In this document: piece after piece, positions 1 through 28,742 of the stretch | Layout of the letters: each line of letters opens with the position of its first letter | How positions within the stretch are numbered: the stretch's first letter is position 1 | Assembly: GCA_029553365.1 (NCBI GenBank) | Contig: JAKPCG010000083.1 | Span: 1-56,361 of the forward strand | Reading direction: 5' to 3' | DNA: 56,361 nt | Source of the DNA: Acidobacteriota bacterium | GTDB taxonomy: Bacteria > Acidobacteriota > Aminicenantia > Aminicenantales > Saccharicenantaceae | Translations under genes and position numbers: made by a program | The notes under the pieces: generated by a model | Databases searched by the model: none | Told to the model about the DNA's origin: nothing | The model's input: the letters and a program-made list of their open reading frames with translations, nothing else

Positions 1-608
1 CTGGAAATAATCAGCGATTGAAATCGCCGGTCAATAGGTTCCATGGCTTCAGTCAAGACGCCATCAATCCTGAATTTTATACGGACAACATTTTCTTTCG
101 ACTCAATATGGATATCACTGGCTCTTTTTTGAACAGCGGTAAAAATGATGGTATTGACCAGCTTGATAATCGAGCCATCCTGTTCAGTGAGTTTTTCAAT
201 GGTAATAACGTCCTCTTCTTCGCCACTCTCCTTTTCCACTACCTGGTGAATAAAACCCTCAGTTGCTTCTTTGAGGACCTGAGAAGCGGTTTCACTGCGC
301 CTGAGGGCTTCCTGCACAGCCCTCAGGCTGGCCGCATAGACTTCCACTTTTCGGCTGAAAAAAGTCTCTATGCTGTCAATAGCAGCCAGGTCGGAAGGAT
401 CCGCCATGGCTATTTTCAAGATCCGCCCATTATCCTCGAGAGGCACAAAATTATAATGATACAAAAAATCAACAGGAAAAGATTGAATAAGCTCCCTGTT
501 CAGTTCAAAACTTCCCAGGTTAAGATAATTTACATGATATTTTTCGGCCAGTCGCCGGGCTTCATTTTCTTCCGCCTGCAGCAACCCGTCAATGTCACCT
601 TTGGTCAC
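1..608 (-). CDS. GspE/PilB-family secretion/pilus ATPase, N-terminal part (cut by window edge)
   Basis: About 202 codons are visible; the gene runs off the left edge before the Walker motifs. Read from the GTG at 608, the protein begins VTKGDIDGLLQAEENEARRL. An N-terminal MshEN/GspE_N-like domain follows (roughly residues 10-100, with PVDFLYHYNFVPLEDNG and IAMADPSDLAAIDSI), then the start of the ATPase region with the characteristic ASDIHIES near residue 170. The start is supported by AAGGAG eight bases upstream. It lies 16 bp behind the GspF-like gene on the same strand, so the two form an operon. The family powers pseudopilus or type IV pilus assembly on the cytoplasmic side of the inner membrane. 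Whether this is a type II secretion or a pilus ATPase cannot be decided from this fragment. Confidence 0.88.
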   Translation of the reverse strand, partial: MTKGDIDGLLQAEENEARRLAEKYHVNYLNLGSFELNRELIQSFPVDFLYHYNFVPLEDNGRILKIAMADPSDLAAIDSIETFFSRKVEVYAASLRAVQEALRRSETASQVLKEATEGFIHQVVEKESGEEEDVITIEKLTEQDGSIIKLVNTIIFTAVQKRASDIHIESKENVVRIKFRIDGVLTEAMEPIDRRFQSLIIS

Positions 609-624
609 AGCTGTCTCCTTTTTG

Positions 625-1827
625 TTACCTGGTTATTCTCACTATGTTAAAGATTGGCAGATAAATAGAAAGAATCATCACTGCCGCCACCAATCCAATA
701 AAGATAATGATTACCGGCTCTATCAGAGAAACCAGGGTTTGTATTCTGTCGCGTAAGGCCTCGTCATAAAAGTCGGCTACCTCACTCAGCATGCCCGGCA
801 AATTAGCCGAACTTTCACCTATCCGGATCATATCCGTGGCCAGAGAAGGAAAGACGCCAGTCTCGGTCAGGGAATCATAAAGGCTCTGTCCACTGGTCAA
901 TTTTTCAGCGACTGTTTCCAGTTGGGAAGCCAGAAAACGGTTAGCTACAGCCTGCCTGGCCACATTTACAGCCGGGATGAGAGAAATTCCAGCTTCCAGC
1001 AGTAAGCCAAGCGTACGGCTGTAAAGTGATACAGCTGTTTCCTCGATTAAATAACGAGAAAAAGGAAGATGTAGTTTCAGCCGGTCATTAAAAAGCCGAA
1101 ATTCTGGGCGGCGTCGCCAGCTGACCAGAGATCCAACTATTATTGCCACCAGCAGTACCAACCAGAGCAAGTTTCTTTGTAAAAAGGTAGCCAGAGAAAT
1201 CAAGGCTCTGGTCATGGCTGGAAGTTGAGCACCAAAATCAGCATAAAAAGAAGCAAATCTTGGAAGCACTAAAATGACCAGAATGCCGATCAGAATTAGC
1301 GAAAATATAATCAAAAGGGTTGGATATAGAAGAGCCGATCTGACCCTGGTACGAGTTTGATTTATAACCTGAGCATAGTCGATATAACGTTCGATAGAAC
1401 CAGGGAGATTGCCGCTTCTTTCTCCGGCCAGAAGAGAAGCCGTATAGACTTTGGAAAAAAGGTGTTCATAAGGCAAAAAAGCTTCGGACAGCGTCCTGCC
1501 TTTTCTAATCTCCTCCTCTACCTGGGTGACAATTTCCCTCAGATAAGGATTCTCTATTCTTTTTTCCATTAGCTCGAGACTTTTAAGCACAGGATAGCCG
1601 GCCCGCAACATGGCCACCAGCTCACGGTTGAATAGAATAAACTCCTGTGGCTTGATTTTCCGGCGAGAGGACCTCAGATGCCCCAGGCTTATTTCTTTGC
1701 GGATAGATAATACATACAGCCCTTCGGCCTCAAGATTCTTACGGCATTCTTCGGGTGAGGCAGCCCTGACTGTTTCCCTGATAATTCGCCCCTCAGGAGT
1801 TATAAGACGGCAATAATATCCAGGCAT
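625..1827 (-). CDS. Type II secretion/type IV pilus inner-membrane platform protein (GspF/PilC family)
   Basis: The 400-residue protein has the family's usual length and two repeated GspF domains (about residues 68-190 and 270-392). The sequence shows three strongly hydrophobic segments: near 165-190, near 213-235, and a C-terminal one ending IYLPIFNIVRITR. The conserved cytoplasmic pattern LVAMLRAGYPVLKSLELM is present at about 70-87, and its counterpart LGLLLEAGISLIPAVNVA appears in the second repeat. GspF/PilC is the polytopic platform that couples the ATPase to pilin or pseudopilin assembly. It is the first visible gene of the operon, upstream of the GspE/PilB gene, and has its own promoter. 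Major pseudopilin and secretin genes are not in the window. Confidence 0.92.
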   Translation of the reverse strand: MPGYYCRLITPEGRIIRETVRAASPEECRKNLEAEGLYVLSIRKEISLGHLRSSRRKIKPQEFILFNRELVAMLRAGYPVLKSLELMEKRIENPYLREIVTQVEEEIRKGRTLSEAFLPYEHLFSKVYTASLLAGERSGNLPGSIERYIDYAQVINQTRTRVRSALLYPTLLIIFSLILIGILVILVLPRFASFYADFGAQLPAMTRALISLATFLQRNLLWLVLLVAIIVGSLVSWRRRPEFRLFNDRLKLHLPFSRYLIEETAVSLYSRTLGLLLEAGISLIPAVNVARQAVANRFLASQLETVAEKLTSGQSLYDSLTETGVFPSLATDMIRIGESSANLPGMLSEVADFYDEALRDRIQTLVSLIEPVIIIFIGLVAAVMILSIYLPIFNIVRITR

Positions 1828-9581: not shown

Positions 9582-10043
9582 TTACACTCCGGGCTGCGGC
9601 TTTGACCCTTCTTTATCTTTTTTTTCCTTTTTCAGGTACTCTTCCCAGGTAACAAAGCTGTGATAGAAAATAGCATCCCCTTCATCAATACCTCTGGTGA
9701 TTTCAGTAATATGTGAAGTCGTTGCCCCGAAGGCCTCGACCGCATAGATAACTGCTTTTTCTGGATCGCCGCTATTACCGCAGGTATAGATATCTAGTGC
9801 TCCATATCTCATCTCAGGCCAGGTATGGGTCGAGATGTGAGATTCAGATATCACCACCACGCCACTGACACCGTTGGGCGGAAACTTGCTGAAAGAAATC
9901 GCCCAGACATGGGAACCAGCTATTTCTGCCGCCTTAACCAGGATTTGCTGGACCTTTTCCACGCTACCAATAATCTTTGGATCGCAACCTGAAGCCTCAA
10001 CGATATAATGATGGCCAATGGTGGAATGTAACTCTTTGGTCAT
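9582..10043 (-). CDS. speD: S-adenosylmethionine decarboxylase proenzyme (bacterial/archaeal class 1b)
   Basis: This 153-residue protein matches the short pyruvoyl-dependent SpeD family. The self-processing site is VISESHISTHTWPE, where Ser68 becomes the pyruvoyl group after cleavage between Glu67 and Ser68. His73 and Cys88 sit at +5 and +20 from it, the same spacing as the catalytic residues I recall for Thermotoga SpeD (Ser63, His68, Cys83). The C-terminus carries a Lys/Glu-rich tail of about 20 residues beyond the usual family length. It makes decarboxylated SAM, the aminopropyl donor for spermidine. No speE-type aminopropyltransferase is in the window, and some SpeD homologues have been shown to decarboxylate other substrates, so the activity is likely but not certain. 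Confidence 0.93.
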   Translation of the reverse strand: MTKELHSTIGHHYIVEASGCDPKIIGSVEKVQQILVKAAEIAGSHVWAISFSKFPPNGVSGVVVISESHISTHTWPEMRYGALDIYTCGNSGDPEKAVIYAVEAFGATTSHITEITRGIDEGDAIFYHSFVTWEEYLKKEKKDKEGSKPQPGV

Positions 10044-10073
10044 TCAATTCCTCCACTTTAAATTGACACCCTG

Positions 10074-10101
10074 ATTATGGCACAAATGATTTTCCTGTCA
10101 A
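10074..10101 (-). promoter_or_regulatory. Sigma-70 promoter for speD
   Basis: On the minus strand TTGACA (10101-10096) is followed after 16 bases by CATAAT (10079-10074). The predicted start is about 25 bases upstream of the ATG at 10043, which also has a GGAGG. Confidence 0.65.
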
Positions 10102-10174
10102 CAAATTTTACCGGTTGGATTCAGGTCGTTTTAAGACCTGTTTGCCTCCCTCCTTTTATTCAGGCCTGGCTTTA

Positions 10175-23894: not shown

Positions 23895-23933
23895 TTCCCC
23901 TATTAACTCAGATAAGATAAGGAGCTAAGCTTG

Positions 23934-24917
23934 ATGAAAAAATTAGCTACAAGACTTTTGCTGATGGCCAGCCTGACTTTTATTACCAGATGGGGCTGGC
24001 TGGGAGCTCAAAATACAACTCGTTACACAGCCACAGAATTAGAAATTAAGGGAATTAAAAATCGTCCATTTTTTTATCGCCCAGTGGCTATGGTTCTTAA
24101 CGAACAGGAGCTTTACCTACTGGAAAGCGGAGATAATAGAATTCGGGTTTTCAATCTGGACGGCATCCAATTAAGAGAGATTGGTCGGAAAGGCAATGGC
24201 CCGGGTGAATTTGACTCTCCTTCCTGTCTGGATGTTAACCAGGGGCAAATTTTTGTGGCTGATACCTTTAACAACCGGATTCAAATATTCAGCAAGGAAG
24301 GGAAAAATCTGGCAGCTTTTAAGGTTCCATCTTTCCCGGAAAATATTGTCTGTCTCAGTGGTAGGGTTCTGGTCGTCTCTTTTCCGGTCAGAAATTTAGA
24401 TGGACCTGAAAAATTGCTCCATGGTTATAAAACTGATGGCACCAGGCTGTGGGCCATCCTGGATTCACAGGCCTCCGGTGACCGGGTATATGATTCATTT
24501 TGTAACCAGATATTCTTAAGGAAAGGGGAAGCGGATACTTTTTATGTTATCTGGAGATATAACAATAGATATATTTTCAAAATTGATAGCCGCGGCGAGA
24601 TCATAAAGAAGATAAAAATCGGCGCAGATTATCCGGTCAAAACTATTAATTTGCCAGGAAAGGAAAAAAGAGTCCTGGAAGGTATCTGCTGGAACGTCGA
24701 TGTTGCCAATCATAACTTTTATCTGATTTCCATGGAAGAGATGGCCGATAAAGATGTTGGGCCGGGCAAAAAAGTTGTAATACTTAACGAAGAAGGAAAC
24801 ATTACCGGTATAATTGATTTCCCTCTGGCTATCAAAAAGCTGGCTGTTAATGGAGATCAAATCTATGCTCTTGATACCGAAGACGAACTTCGTCTTTTTA
24901 AGCTGAATATAAAATGA
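23934..24917 (+). CDS. Secreted six-bladed beta-propeller-like (NHL-type) protein
   Basis: The 327-residue protein (ATG at 23934, AAGGAG nine bases upstream) has an N-terminal signal (MKKLATRLLLMASLTFI, cleavage near LGA or AQN). NHL/YWTD-like blades follow, shown by repeats such as LYLLESGDNRIRVFNLDG, GNGPGEFDSPSCLDVNQGQI, FVADTFNNRIQIFSKEGK and LDTEDELRLFKLN. This is the pattern of the 6-bladed beta-propeller family common in Bacteroidetes and Acidobacteria. There, as I recall, such genes often follow short secreted peptides. The ATG of the next gene overlaps its stop (ATGA). Role unknown; propellers usually bind peptides, glycans or proteins. Confidence 0.82.
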   Translation: MKKLATRLLLMASLTFITRWGWLGAQNTTRYTATELEIKGIKNRPFFYRPVAMVLNEQELYLLESGDNRIRVFNLDGIQLREIGRKGNGPGEFDSPSCLDVNQGQIFVADTFNNRIQIFSKEGKNLAAFKVPSFPENIVCLSGRVLVVSFPVRNLDGPEKLLHGYKTDGTRLWAILDSQASGDRVYDSFCNQIFLRKGEADTFYVIWRYNNRYIFKIDSRGEIIKKIKIGADYPVKTINLPGKEKRVLEGICWNVDVANHNFYLISMEEMADKDVGPGKKVVILNEEGNITGIIDFPLAIKKLAVNGDQIYALDTEDELRLFKLNIK

Positions 24918-25435
24918 ATAATATAATAGGCTGTTTAATTTTAAGTCTTATTATGTGCCGGCCTGGAGGTTTACTGCTATCTTCAGACTTCTTTTATGGA
25001 CAGCAAACAGCGGATCAACATCTTTCTCGCCCAGCCGTCAGAATTTACTCTTCCCTGGAAGAAGTCAGCAGGAATTCATCACAGCCGGTACTGCTGGTTT
25101 TCTTTTCAGTTGTCTGTCATGTTTGCTGGGACGAGTTGTTTGAAATGAAGGATTTTTTAGAAGAATTTTCTTTGCCGGTTCAGCTGGTAGGTGTTTCCAC
25201 CGATGAGAAAGAAGAGCTGGAAAAGTTCGCTGTCCGTTATTCTTTCCCATATCCGATTATTCACGATCTGGAGAAAAAATTGTACAGGCGATACAAAGTC
25301 CGGCTTGAACCGTTCCTGGTAATCCTGGTTGGGAACGAAGCGGTCTATTATGATAATACCCTTCTCGATTATTCTTTAAGAAGAGAAAAAGCCAAGCAGT
25401 TTCTTTTTAGTTTGTCTTCGCCTGATAAAAATTGA
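24914..25435 (+). CDS. Exported thioredoxin-fold (TlpA/redoxin-like) protein with CHVC motif
   Basis: The 173-residue protein has a hydrophobic N-terminus that could be a signal or anchor (residues 1-25, including a Cys at 15). A thioredoxin-like fold follows with active-site VVCHVCWDEL (C-x-x-C at about 67-70), LVGVSTDEKEELEKFAVRY and a cis-Pro-like LEPFLVILV. Redoxins of this kind reduce or oxidise disulfides in the periplasm. It overlaps the propeller gene by four bases. It sits in the same cluster as the four-cysteine protein, so a role in that protein's disulfide state is attractive but unproven. Confidence 0.82.
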   Translation: MNNIIGCLILSLIMCRPGGLLLSSDFFYGQQTADQHLSRPAVRIYSSLEEVSRNSSQPVLLVFFSVVCHVCWDELFEMKDFLEEFSLPVQLVGVSTDEKEELEKFAVRYSFPYPIIHDLEKKLYRRYKVRLEPFLVILVGNEAVYYDNTLLDYSLRREKAKQFLFSLSSPDKN

Positions 25436-25600: not shown

Positions 25601-25629
25601 TTGATTTTTTGCTTAAAGTGTATTATAAG
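25601..25629 (+). promoter_or_regulatory. Sigma-70 promoter ahead of the structured TonB-receptor leader
   Basis: TTGATT (25601-25606), a 17-base spacer and TATAAG (25624-25629) predict a start near 25637. Upstream, 25436-25600 holds no gene and no motif that I can name. Confidence 0.5.
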
Positions 25630-25636
25630 AACTTCT

Positions 25637-25734
25637 GCTCCGAGCCCACCAGGCTAAAGCCAAAGGCCAGGCCGGCGGGCCGTTAGGGTAAAGCCGGAAA
25701 CGGCTTTGCCTCCCATTAGGAAAGGAGAAGTAAG
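25637..25734 (+). promoter_or_regulatory. Structured 5' leader of the TonB receptor, candidate riboswitch or other cis element
   Basis: The G/C-rich leader of about 98 bases contrasts with its A/T-rich surroundings. It contains GGC-TAAA-GCC near 25653, a GGCC/GGCC arm near 25665-25682, and a seven-base hairpin AAAGCCG-GAAA-CGGCTTT (about 25690-25707). GGG before and CCC after the last hairpin could extend its stem. The element TAAAGCC occurs twice. AGGAAAGGAGAAG, the ribosome binding site, follows directly. I compared it by memory with the common TPP, cobalamin, FMN, glycine and cyclic-di-GMP classes and saw no convincing match. The downstream genes suggest control by a transported nutrient or metal. 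Confidence 0.45.
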
Positions 25735-27675
25735 ATGCTTGCCTCTAAAAAGTTTCCTAAATTTTTATTGACCTGTCTCATTTTCGTCCTATCAATTTCG
25801 CTGGTGACTGCTATCTCTTTTGCTCAGGAAAATACAGACCAGGAAAAGAAGAAGGAAAAAGAAGAGAAGCCGGTCAGAGTAAAAACAGAAGAAATTATGG
25901 TCACGGCCAGCGCTCCTCAGGAAAAACCTCTGGCCACTGTGTCTACCATCGAACCGCAGACCATTCAGCTGCTTAAAACCAAAAATATCTCTGAGGTTCT
26001 GTCTTTTGTCCCCGGGACCCATGTCACCGTTGGGGCTAAGTCAGAATCCCACATCAAGATAAGAGGGCTCGATAATGACAAATCAACGCTCTTACTTGAT
26101 GGTATACCAGTCTATGAACCCTATTATAATATGTATGATCTAAAGACCATTCCCAGTGAGGATATCGATACCATCCAGGTCACCAAGGGTTCCTCTTCTA
26201 TTCTTTACGGGGCAAATACTATGGGCGGAATAGTGGAAGTTTTAACTCGCCGGCCGGAAAAGACCAGTCTGGAGCTTAACTCCCGTTTCAGCCAGAATTC
26301 TACCTTCGATTTCTCCGGCACAGGCACTTTTTATAGTCCAAAATTTGCCTTTAAGTTATCAGCTCTTCATAACGAATCGCAGGGTTATAAATACCGCCAA
26401 TCTGATACGGATATTCTTCTTCCCAATTCCGACTATAAAAACGACTTTTTTAACGGCAAATTTTATTTTTACCCAACCCAGAAAAGTGAAATACTATTAC
26501 AGGCTTCTTATTATGATTCTTCCTATGGTATTCCGCCTGCGACCGCATATTATTCTCCTCGCTACTGGCGCTTTAAAGACTGGGAAAGAACTGTGCTGGG
26601 TCTGGGCGGAACTTTTCCTCTGTTTAAGACCGGAACAATCAAGATAAGAACCTATTATGTAAAATTTTATAATGTTCTTGATGCTTATACTAATTCCTCT
26701 ATGACTACTCTCGACTGGGAATCTATCTATGATAACTATGAGACTGGAGCCTTCATCTTAGGGGCGATACCTCTGGCCAAAAACAACGATTTGCGCTTCA
26801 GTTTGAATGGTCGCTATGAACATGTTGAACAGCAAGGTTCAGCCACTTCCCCCTGGGAATTATACAAGCATCATGTTTATTCAGCAGGAATTGAGGATGA
26901 GTGGCGGCTCACTCCCAGATGGAGTCTAATTGGCGGACTGAGCTTTGATTATTTAAAAAAGCAGGGAGGTAAAGAAAGTAGTTCCGTTAACCCCATCGCC
27001 GGTTTAAAATTTAAAGTCACTAATGAGGCCAATCTCCATTTCTCTTTCTCCCGCAAATCACGTTTCCCCTCAATGCGTTCACTATACAGTACAACCAGCG
27101 GCAACCCCGATCTTAAAGACGAAGTGGGTACGTCTTTCGAGCTCGGAGCTGATTATTCTGGCTGGTTAAACGGCAGTTTGACCGGTTTTACTTCAGATTA
27201 TAAAGACCTGATTTATGTTATTCGCCAGCCCAATGGAACAAAATTATATATTAATGTCGGCGAGGCCCGGATTAGAGGTCTGGAAGCCTATGTCTCCAAA
27301 AGCCTGAAGAATTTTAATTTCCAGGTTAATTATACTTACCTGGATGCTAAAAACCTGACTGATGATCGACCTCTTGATCTTGTTCCTGAGTCTGAAGCCA
27401 GTTTTCTGGCCAGTTACCTCCTGCCAGAAAACTTTAGTCTAACCCTCTGGGTATTAATGACTTCCAGGTCAGAAATTTTGATCAGCTCAAATTCAGTTTC
27501 CGTTCCCGGCTATACAGTAGCCAACCTGTCCTTTGAGAAATATTTAAGAGGCGGATCACTGTTTTTTAGAGTAGAAAACCTGTTTAATAAAGCTTATTAC
27601 ACAGAGCCCGGTTATCCCTGCGCTTGTCGCCGGCTGGAAGCAGGATTTACATTCAGGGTTGGCCCAGCAGACTGA
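25735..27675 (+). CDS. TonB-dependent outer-membrane receptor (siderophore/cofactor/metal type)
   Basis: The 646-residue protein has a signal peptide (cleavage near ISFAQ at about 30) and a charged linker. A TonB box-like EEIMVTASAP follows (about 53), then a plug domain (about 65-170, including SHIKIRGLDNDKSTLLLDGIPVYE cut short here, and QVTKGSSSILYGANTMGGIVEV) and a 22-strand barrel region. The late motif SRKSRFPSMRSLYS with NPDLKDEVGTSFELG is typical of FepA/BtuB-like receptors. The C-terminus does not end in the usual aromatic residue. It sits behind a structured leader and 26 bp ahead of a sulfite-oxidase-fold protein, so its substrate may be a metal or cofactor. The substrate is not shown by sequence. 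Confidence 0.93.
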   Translation: MLASKKFPKFLLTCLIFVLSISLVTAISFAQENTDQEKKKEKEEKPVRVKTEEIMVTASAPQEKPLATVSTIEPQTIQLLKTKNISEVLSFVPGTHVTVGAKSESHIKIRGLDNDKSTLLLDGIPVYEPYYNMYDLKTIPSEDIDTIQVTKGSSSILYGANTMGGIVEVLTRRPEKTSLELNSRFSQNSTFDFSGTGTFYSPKFAFKLSALHNESQGYKYRQSDTDILLPNSDYKNDFFNGKFYFYPTQKSEILLQASYYDSSYGIPPATAYYSPRYWRFKDWERTVLGLGGTFPLFKTGTIKIRTYYVKFYNVLDAYTNSSMTTLDWESIYDNYETGAFILGAIPLAKNNDLRFSLNGRYEHVEQQGSATSPWELYKHHVYSAGIEDEWRLTPRWSLIGGLSFDYLKKQGGKESSSVNPIAGLKFKVTNEANLHFSFSRKSRFPSMRSLYSTTSGNPDLKDEVGTSFELGADYSGWLNGSLTGFTSDYKDLIYVIRQPNGTKLYINVGEARIRGLEAYVSKSLKNFNFQVNYTYLDAKNLTDDRPLDLVPESEASFLASYLLPENFSLTLWVLMTSRSEILISSNSVSVPGYTVANLSFEKYLRGGSLFFRVENLFNKAYYTEPGYPCACRRLEAGFTFRVGPAD

Positions 27676-27701: not shown

Positions 27702-28742
27702 ATGAAAAAACATCACATTAAGATATCTGTCCTGATTGTTCTGACCCTTATAGGGCTTGGCCTGTCCTGGCCAGCAGCTGCTCAAAATATAAAACCGGCC
27801 GAGAATAACGATTTCTATGATAATGTACCATTCAAAGAACTACCGTTCGATAGTATTGAAATCGCGGGTGAAGTAACTTCTCCTGGCAGATTGAGCTTGA
27901 AAGGCCTGCCTCTGCACCAGGTTATGGTTCGCGAAGCCGTTTTAAATGGTACTGAGACAAAGTTTATTGGTGCCTATGTGTACCAGGGTTATTCCCTGTT
28001 TGATATCCTCAAGGATCAAATCCTGGCCAAAAAAAATAAAGACCAGTTCAGCTCGCCCATTGATTTGATGGTCATAGTGGAAAATAAAAAGGGTGAGCAG
28101 GTAATTTTTAGCTGGGGTGAAATATTTTATCCGACGGTTCTTCATCGCCAGATAATTGGAGTGAAAGTAGCTCCGATTATACCCTCATCCACTGGCGAGA
28201 CCTGGCCACTCCCGACCAACCCCAAAATTGTGGCGGCTAACGACCTTTTTTCTGAGCGCAACCTGGATAGCCCGGTTAAAATCACCGTCAAATCTTTTCC
28301 TCTGGCGATGGCCACAGAAAAAGGCAAAAAACCTTTGTTTTCTCCTCAGATAAAGATTTACATCAAAGGCGAAGAAAAAGGCAGCCTGGACAAATTGCCT
28401 CAGGATACTCTGATTTTAAATCTACCGGCCGTCTTTTTTGGGCGCGGTCAGGGCTTTCACGGAGTCAATTATTTTCAAGGGGTACCCCTGCGATTAGTGC
28501 TTGAAAAATACCTTGGCTCTCAGCCTATAAATTATAGAACCGCTCATCTGGTTATAATCGGAGATGACGGCTATCGGGCAGTCTATACAGCTTCGGAAAT
28601 ATTTAACAGAAATGATAACCAGGAAACTATTATTTGCGATCGAGGCCAGCAGAATGGAGGACGTTTTTCTCTTTTCTCGATAGGTGATTTTTTCTCTGAC
28701 CGGGCCGTTAAAGCTATTAAAGAAATCAGATTCATCGAGTAA
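27702..28742 (+). CDS. Exported protein with two sulfite-oxidase-like (molybdopterin-binding fold) repeats
   Basis: The 346-residue protein has a signal peptide ending near AAAQ (28). Two similar units follow: one around 50-150 (IAGEVTSPGRLSLKGLP, then GYSLFDILKDQI, then VIVENKKGEQVIFSWGEIF) and one around 220-320 (IYIKGEEKGSLDKLP, then GVPLRLVLEKYL, then VIIGDDGYRAVYTASEIF). This is the pattern of the Mo-binding domain of sulfite-oxidase-like proteins, here duplicated and with no evident cofactor-ligating Cys; the only Cys is at about 315 (IICDRGQ). It is co-oriented with the TonB receptor, with AGGAGG at the start. It may bind the receptor's substrate in the periplasm rather than act as an enzyme, which is inference. 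Confidence 0.72.
   Translation: MKKHHIKISVLIVLTLIGLGLSWPAAAQNIKPAENNDFYDNVPFKELPFDSIEIAGEVTSPGRLSLKGLPLHQVMVREAVLNGTETKFIGAYVYQGYSLFDILKDQILAKKNKDQFSSPIDLMVIVENKKGEQVIFSWGEIFYPTVLHRQIIGVKVAPIIPSSTGETWPLPTNPKIVAANDLFSERNLDSPVKITVKSFPLAMATEKGKKPLFSPQIKIYIKGEEKGSLDKLPQDTLILNLPAVFFGRGQGFHGVNYFQGVPLRLVLEKYLGSQPINYRTAHLVIIGDDGYRAVYTASEIFNRNDNQETIICDRGQQNGGRFSLFSIGDFFSDRAVKAIKEIRFIE

Follow-up and report, generated by a model that had tools for sequence, protein, structure and literature searches.

Among the closest described counterparts of the RNA considered here is the leader of the Escherichia coli moaABCDE operon (Regulski 2008, PMC2408646), which combines helices P1, P2 and P4 with a GAAA loop on P4 and a ribosome-binding site lying within P1, and for which repression was inferred. 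In the main text of that work, a form of this molybdenum cofactor (Moco) riboswitch without P3 is tied to the tungsten form of the cofactor (Tuco) by correlation, with exceptions listed and no proof of binding, and the E. coli RNA is reported simply to lose function when P3 is deleted. The same main text contains no mention of "TonB", "outer membrane" or "Acidobacter". In Pelobacter carbinolicus, a published genome account places ligand-gated (TonB-type) channels near molybdopterin-cofactor riboswitches or molybdopterin-binding proteins, suggests that they transport metal, and puts three aor genes under such riboswitches (PMC3543383). The association of a TonB receptor with a Moco riboswitch is not new in principle; this precedent is one sentence about one genome of another phylum, and it resembles the receptor described below by its description only. 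Cobalamin and thiamine pyrophosphate (TPP) riboswitches ahead of TonB receptors, as described in Caldithrix abyssi (PMC5317091), likewise place a cofactor riboswitch over such a receptor but belong to other RNA classes with other ligands; in the same account a Moco riboswitch lies 1130 nt ahead of a molybdate transporter. A literature search for "Moco riboswitch" together with TonB returned nothing, and related papers on molybdenum, riboswitches or TonB did not contain the pair in the text available. Within the literature searched we also found no characterized TonB receptor for the outer-membrane passage of tungsten, and no account of the recurrence in this phylum, the link to tungsten enzymes or the tandem partner protein reported here.

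The locus that we compare with these systems lies in a 56,361-nucleotide stretch of an Acidobacteriota genome (contig JAKPCG010000083.1; hereafter the window). An earlier note had singled out a structured, G/C-rich leader at positions 25637-25734, ahead of a TonB receptor gene, as a candidate riboswitch unlike the classes familiar to its author. When the whole window was scanned against all 4227 Rfam families, the sole match was RF01055, the Moco riboswitch, with 70.5 bits (gathering cut-off 36 bits; E 4.8e-15) across model positions 1-135 of 135. The leader is a member of the Moco riboswitch family; the comparison with Moco models that had been suggested in the same note identifies a riboswitch by family membership and places it in a familiar class. 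An unknown riboswitch class is rejected because this match stands above its cut-off, as are cobalamin and all other Rfam riboswitches, since no other family reaches its cut-off in the window; matches to M23 and mir-1282 fall far under their own. The composition and structure noted earlier also hold. The leader has a GC content of 60.2%, whereas its 500-base flanks have 39.0% on the upstream and 43.2% on the downstream side; only 0.7% of the window's 98-base stretches are as rich. The leader's strand folds better than shuffled versions (z -2.56; 2 of 200 shuffles equally good). TAAAGCC occurs at both 25655 and 25689, and the AAAGCCG-GAAA-CGGCTTT hairpin proves to be part of a longer stem of 11 base pairs (25686-25696/25701-25711), which is P4. 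The aptamer model extends a few bases beyond both ends of the proposed interval. A single copy of RF01055 was detected in the window's own genome, an assembly estimated to be 74.5% complete. Upstream, genes for an NHL-repeat protein and an AhpC/TSA thioredoxin-like protein (23931-25435) end 190 bases ahead of the aptamer.

Table 1. Coordinates of the riboswitch, its putative promoter and the genes behind it, numbered from the first base of the window.
Feature	Position	Strand	Basis or remark
Promoter-like site, TTGATT (25601-25606), 17 bases, TATAAG (25624-25629)	25601-25629	+	Predicted start at about 25636
Moco riboswitch aptamer (RF01055), lacking P3	25626-25743	+	Covariance model score and alignment
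P1, 5' strand, CUCC	25638-25641	+	Pairs with 25724-25727
P2 with inner P2b	25644-25680	+	P2 25644-25654/25671-25680; P2b 25659-25661/25665-25667; 11 of 13 pairs changed on both sides
Five-base linker CGUUA in place of P3	25681-25685	+	P3 of the model deleted in the alignment
P4, 11 pairs, GAAA tetraloop at 25697-25700	25686-25711	+	7 of 11 pairs changed on both sides
P5, two pairs	25712-25713 with 25719-25720	+	Model alignment
GGAG, Shine-Dalgarno sequence and 3' strand of P1	25724-25727	+	7 bases ahead of the ATG at 25735
TonB-dependent receptor, 646 aa	25735-27675	+	Plug 4.4e-22, barrel 1.5e-42
Secreted PruR-like protein, 346 aa, two tandem sulfite-oxidase-fold domains	27702-28742	+	26 bases behind the receptor gene

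The helices of the window's RNA follow the architecture of the E. coli leader, from which it differs in lacking P3 and in controlling a TonB receptor rather than a moa, mod or enzyme gene (Table 1). Canonical tetraloop receptors take an 11-base form; at the model's tetraloop receptor position in P2, the window has CUAAAG...CCAGG, which differs from it. The putative promoter matches the consensus at 9 of 12 positions, a level that shuffled upstream sequence equals in 9% of trials for a single site, and it was omitted by an automated promoter scan that required T at the last position. A promoter-like -10 element ends 8-10 bases ahead of P1 in 19 of the 26 TonB-linked sites, the other seven being without one. 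The predicted start falls at the 5' end of the element rather than downstream of it, so that the left boundary proposed earlier appears plausible. In an unconstrained fold the ribosome-binding region pairs with ACUUCU at 25631-25636, just outside a transcript beginning at the predicted start; thus P1 may comprise only about four pairs, and so short a helix would fit a stem that depends on its ligand for stability.

To set this RNA in its phylum, we drew on a survey of 396 genomes that found RF01055 in 57 of them (55 above the cut-off), at 80 places; flanks were taken for 78, leaving out two sub-cut-off places (G084 and G023). An alignment of 50 of the 59 short homologues (≤127 bases) shows that the stems covary, as the earlier note had proposed to check in orthologous leaders. 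On the given structure 80.6% of alignment cells pair, against 66.2% after shuffling, and cells with changes on both sides number 229, against 71.8 (sd 8.4) in shuffles, none of 500 being as high and slid-partner controls reaching at most 78. Counted instead as pairs with two-sided change, the total of 19 is not above that of the shuffles (17.0; 79 of 500 reach 19). Within P2, P2b and P4, changes on both sides occur in 18 of 24 pairs. MAFFT misaligned P1 and P5, so these statistics are silent on P1, which was parsed separately: of the 76 places parsed, 56 have CTCC/GGAG and 6 have TTCC/GGAA, the other 14 being mismatched or misparsed. A script found the GAAA loop of P4 in 75 of 78 places, and one of the remaining three (G162) has GAAA too, a parsing slip. 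In 22 of the 27 TonB-linked places the GGAG lies 5-8 bases ahead of the start codon.

These observations bear on whether the leader switches at all. That it has decayed, or serves only as structure or as a terminator, seems to us very improbable: one relative in the genus does have a decayed 5' half (G387:C6, 46 bits), but the score in the window is far over the cut-off, the junction bases are conserved and the stems covary among relatives. A terminator within the leader was rejected, none of the predicted terminator-like sites lying there, and translational control is thus the simplest platform. Since the GGAG doubles as the 3' strand of P1, translation should be blocked once the ligand is bound. 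We therefore regard the RNA as very probably a P3-lacking (Tuco) Moco riboswitch that acts as a cofactor off-switch on translation of the TonB receptor. As an RNA it simply adds one more member to a known riboswitch class; what is little studied is the uptake module under its control.

The first gene of that module does encode a TonB receptor, as claimed at the outset. Its plug and beta-barrel domains score 79.0 bits (cut-off 23.9) and 147.5 bits (cut-off 27) against Pfam, and its named relatives, 88% and 87% identical, come from Candidatus Saccharicenans / Aminicenantes. A BtuB vitamin B12 receptor was considered and set aside, the scores falling below the NCBIfam equivalog cut-offs (BtuB 114 against 836 bits; TonB-B12 130.4 against 599.7). 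In the predicted structure (pLDDT 87.4) the nearest folds are BtuB, PirA, Cir and OprC, and they leave the substrate unfixed.

The second gene is more unusual. Its product has no sequence match in Pfam, NCBIfam or the PDB, although one distant member of its family gives a sub-threshold match to PF00174. A profile of the family found no match among PDB sequences either, and its relation to PruR therefore rests on folds. In the predicted model (pLDDT 81.0, pTM 0.79), residues from about 205 to 346 resemble sulfite oxidases (Z up to 10.0) and the PruR pterin-binding proteins. Against PDB 7kom the Foldseek probability is 1.00 and residues 215-345 give a VIA Z of 9.1 (2.6 Å over 117 of 134 residues), and against 7rkb, which contains neopterin, Z is 8.5. 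Values of about 9-10 exceed the background of 7-8 that the tool states by no more than a moderate margin, but sulfite-oxidase (SUOX) folds and PruR fill ranks 1-28. VIA also matched staphylococcal superantigen-like and other proteins at Z of about 5, which we judged to be resemblances of shape between unrelated proteins. The protein consists of two mutually related halves (hhalign 96.9%, 114 columns). PruR itself, according to a published review, lacks the molybdenum-binding cysteine, carries a tryptophan and has a pocket that is probably too tight for the complete cofactor (PMC13259868). As far as that account goes, the window's protein shares with PruR the sulfite-oxidase fold, a secretion signal and the absence of the molybdenum cysteine, whereas it has two tandem domains (346 aa rather than about 170), lacks a conserved tryptophan and is encoded beside a TonB receptor rather than DcpA. 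Across 13 PruR-like members there is no conserved cysteine; nor, judged by conservation over the family, is there an invariant or nearly invariant tryptophan.

Within the phylum a PruR-like gene follows the receptor in at least 13 of the 27 TonB-linked places (12 by tblastn, plus G374), several contigs ending early. It is itself the first gene behind the riboswitch, without a TonB gene, at loci L106 (G369:C62) and L073 (G034:C214). In genome G387 (L108), a second TonB/PruR-like pair has a riboswitch at 9996-10117 on the minus strand (46 bits) whose decayed 5' half has CCCCCGTTTT for CTCCGAG. Away from riboswitches, a TonB gene adjoins the PruR-like gene in 5 of 18 loci fetched, and RF01055 was found at none of the 17 scanned. 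At L082 (4502-5632, plus strand) the TonB and PruR-like genes are separated by the gene of a membrane protein that has four hydrophobic segments and a weak likeness to ResB, and L053 (G138) has a matching gene; the PruR-like protein of L082 carries a CXXCH heme motif.

Such features might indicate that the PruR-like protein, instead of being a binder, frees metal from an imported chelate, either as an oxidoreductase or as the heme-linked partner of a reductase system. The sulfite-oxidase fold, the heme motif and the intervening membrane protein at two loci are in keeping with catalysis of this kind, but the family has no conserved cysteine to hold molybdenum and 12 of its 13 members are without CXXCH. 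We consider this role rather unlikely.

The question of which metal the system serves can be approached through the tungsten enzymes of the phylum. Aldehyde:ferredoxin oxidoreductase (AOR, PF01314) is encoded in 129 of the 396 genomes, including one protein in the window's genome (G000), and it is enriched among genomes with the riboswitch (40 of 57, against 89 of 339 others; Fisher p 3e-10, which ignores kinship). All 26 genomes with the TonB arrangement have PF01314, and the arrangement is absent from all 15 riboswitch genomes without AOR that were examined (p 7e-6, again ignoring kinship). The correlation is partly that of one lineage, since 21 of the 26 belong to the window's own class and the other five come from three further families. 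As a control, E. coli also scores for PF01314, so the family alone is no proof of tungsten use. P3 is absent from 25 of the 27 TonB-linked riboswitches, the exceptions being G162 and G374. By script this group divided into 24 without P3, two with it and one unparsed (G387:C6, which has a short linker by reading); elsewhere the script misread several long or unusual sequences, which were corrected by reading their predicted folds, so that counts outside the TonB group are hand-made. With these corrections, 56 of the 61 riboswitches in AOR-bearing genomes and 7 of the 17 in other genomes are without P3. In the window's genome, the lack of the P3 stem coincides with a homologue of a tungsten enzyme, both features of the Tuco form, and on balance we favor the tungsten form of the cofactor as the main ligand.

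The same RNA could instead respond to the molybdenum cofactor, or to both forms, with P3 loss a mere structural variant and the receptor taking up molybdenum. That P3-lacking riboswitches occur in AOR-less genomes too is consistent with this possibility, as are the exceptions in the main text of Regulski 2008, and molybdenum use is possible in the window's genome because it encodes two PF00384 proteins. Against it stand the contrast in P3 loss between genomes with and without AOR and the identity of the ABC importers under the same RNA, WtpA and TupA, which are named for tungstate. We hold molybdenum to be a credible ligand, if a doubtful one.

Those importers emerged when the first genes behind 78 riboswitches were classified by tblastn with family representatives. 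A TonB receptor comes first in 27 places (including that of G138:C350, which was hidden by a false reading frame), TupA in 12, MoaA in 12, WtpA in 6 and MoeA in 6. The rest comprise Δ1-pyrroline-5-carboxylate (P5C) dehydrogenase in 5, MoaC/Mog in 3, the PruR-like gene in 2, siderophore-type or unnamed ABC genes in 3 (two Peripla_BP_2 binding proteins and one unnamed gene ahead of ABC genes) and two others, namely an SBP_bac_11-type binding protein (L085) and a contig end. Thus tungstate-type or similar ABC importers come first in 19 places (TupA 12, WtpA 6, SBP_bac_11 type 1) and MoaA, MoeA or MoaC in 21. The WtpA of L071 scores above the NCBIfam tungstate equivalog cut-offs; the TupA of L086 matches no NCBIfam model but that for tungstate, and scores below its cut-off (199.8 against 400). 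We discarded gene clusters 8, 10, 11 and 23, which follow TonB genes in several relatives, because they have the look of spurious antisense frames.

Other contexts in the survey deserve mention in their own right. P5C (glutamate-semialdehyde) dehydrogenase, which is no tungsten enzyme, is first at L079, L080, L090, L109 and L110 (G030, G068, G043, G374 and G037). Control of metE by a B12 riboswitch follows an isozyme logic, and a similar logic may possibly apply here. At L149 two divergent Moco riboswitches (508-629, minus strand, and 792-935, plus strand) are separated by 162 bases, one facing a P5C dehydrogenase and the other a TonB and a PruR-like gene. Siderophore/B12-type ABC import genes (with Peripla_BP_2 in L096) lie under P3-containing riboswitches at L096, L099 and L113, whose genomes possess the TonB arrangement as well.

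Whether the module imports metal or the cofactor itself can be weighed from the window's genus. Among 19 genomes, AOR is found in 19, PF00384 in 18, RF01055 in 16, MoeA in 16, MoaA over its cut-off in 16, TupA in 15 and the PruR-like protein in 10. MoaA and MoeA are both present in 8 of the 10 PruR-like genomes, the two without being the incomplete genomes G000 and G401. G000, G401 and G403 (completeness 74.5, 63 and 91%, respectively) gave no match to MoaA above its cut-off, to MoeA or to TupA. We dropped cofactor auxotrophy as proof of salvage: in relatives the three genes sit together in a single operon, so that their absence may come down to one missing contig, and G403 is without a PruR-like gene. 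The receptor module accompanies cofactor synthesis and is no substitute for it.

This distribution favors metal uptake over salvage, in which the receptor and the PruR-like protein would serve, like BtuB and BtuF for vitamin B12, to import or capture the whole cofactor, a molybdopterin precursor or a pterin. The pairing of a receptor whose nearest folds include BtuB with a protein that has the fold of a periplasmic pterin binder, and the recurrence of that protein under the riboswitch, make the analogy attractive. Yet salvage would be needless in the 8 genomes with MoaA and MoeA, the pocket of PruR is described as too small for the full cofactor, the fold is equally that of sulfite oxidases, the tryptophan is not conserved, and BtuB is the general shape of small TonB receptors as well. 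We judge such import unlikely. To a dedicated, cofactor-switched counterpart of BtuB/BtuF that takes up a tungsten- or molybdenum-pterin, or a pterin-assisted tungsten chelate, we give similarly little credence. That the receptor moves some tungsten or molybdenum species we consider likely.

Taken as an off-switch governed chiefly by the tungsten cofactor, the locus might work as follows. Transcription would probably begin with the opening bases of P1. Abundant cofactor would bind the multi-helix junction and stabilize the short P1, sequestering the ribosome-binding GGAG, so that translation of the TonB receptor would fall, as would probably that of the PruR-like protein behind it. When the cofactor is scarce, P1 would open and the receptor would be made. 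The receptor would most likely carry complexed tungsten (or molybdenum) over the outer membrane, and the onward step across the inner membrane could fall to tungstate ABC importers, which are under the same riboswitch in relatives. We infer the off direction from Regulski 2008 together with the anatomy of the leader, and with considerable confidence would expect control to act on translation.

Our findings suggest that, in this phylum, genes for cofactor synthesis, for tungstate-type ABC importers and for an outer-membrane receptor repeatedly come under the same cofactor switch. They add data from another phylum to the proposed rule linking P3 and tungsten. Moreover, the recurrent contexts of the receptor make it a testable candidate for the passage of tungsten across the outer membrane.
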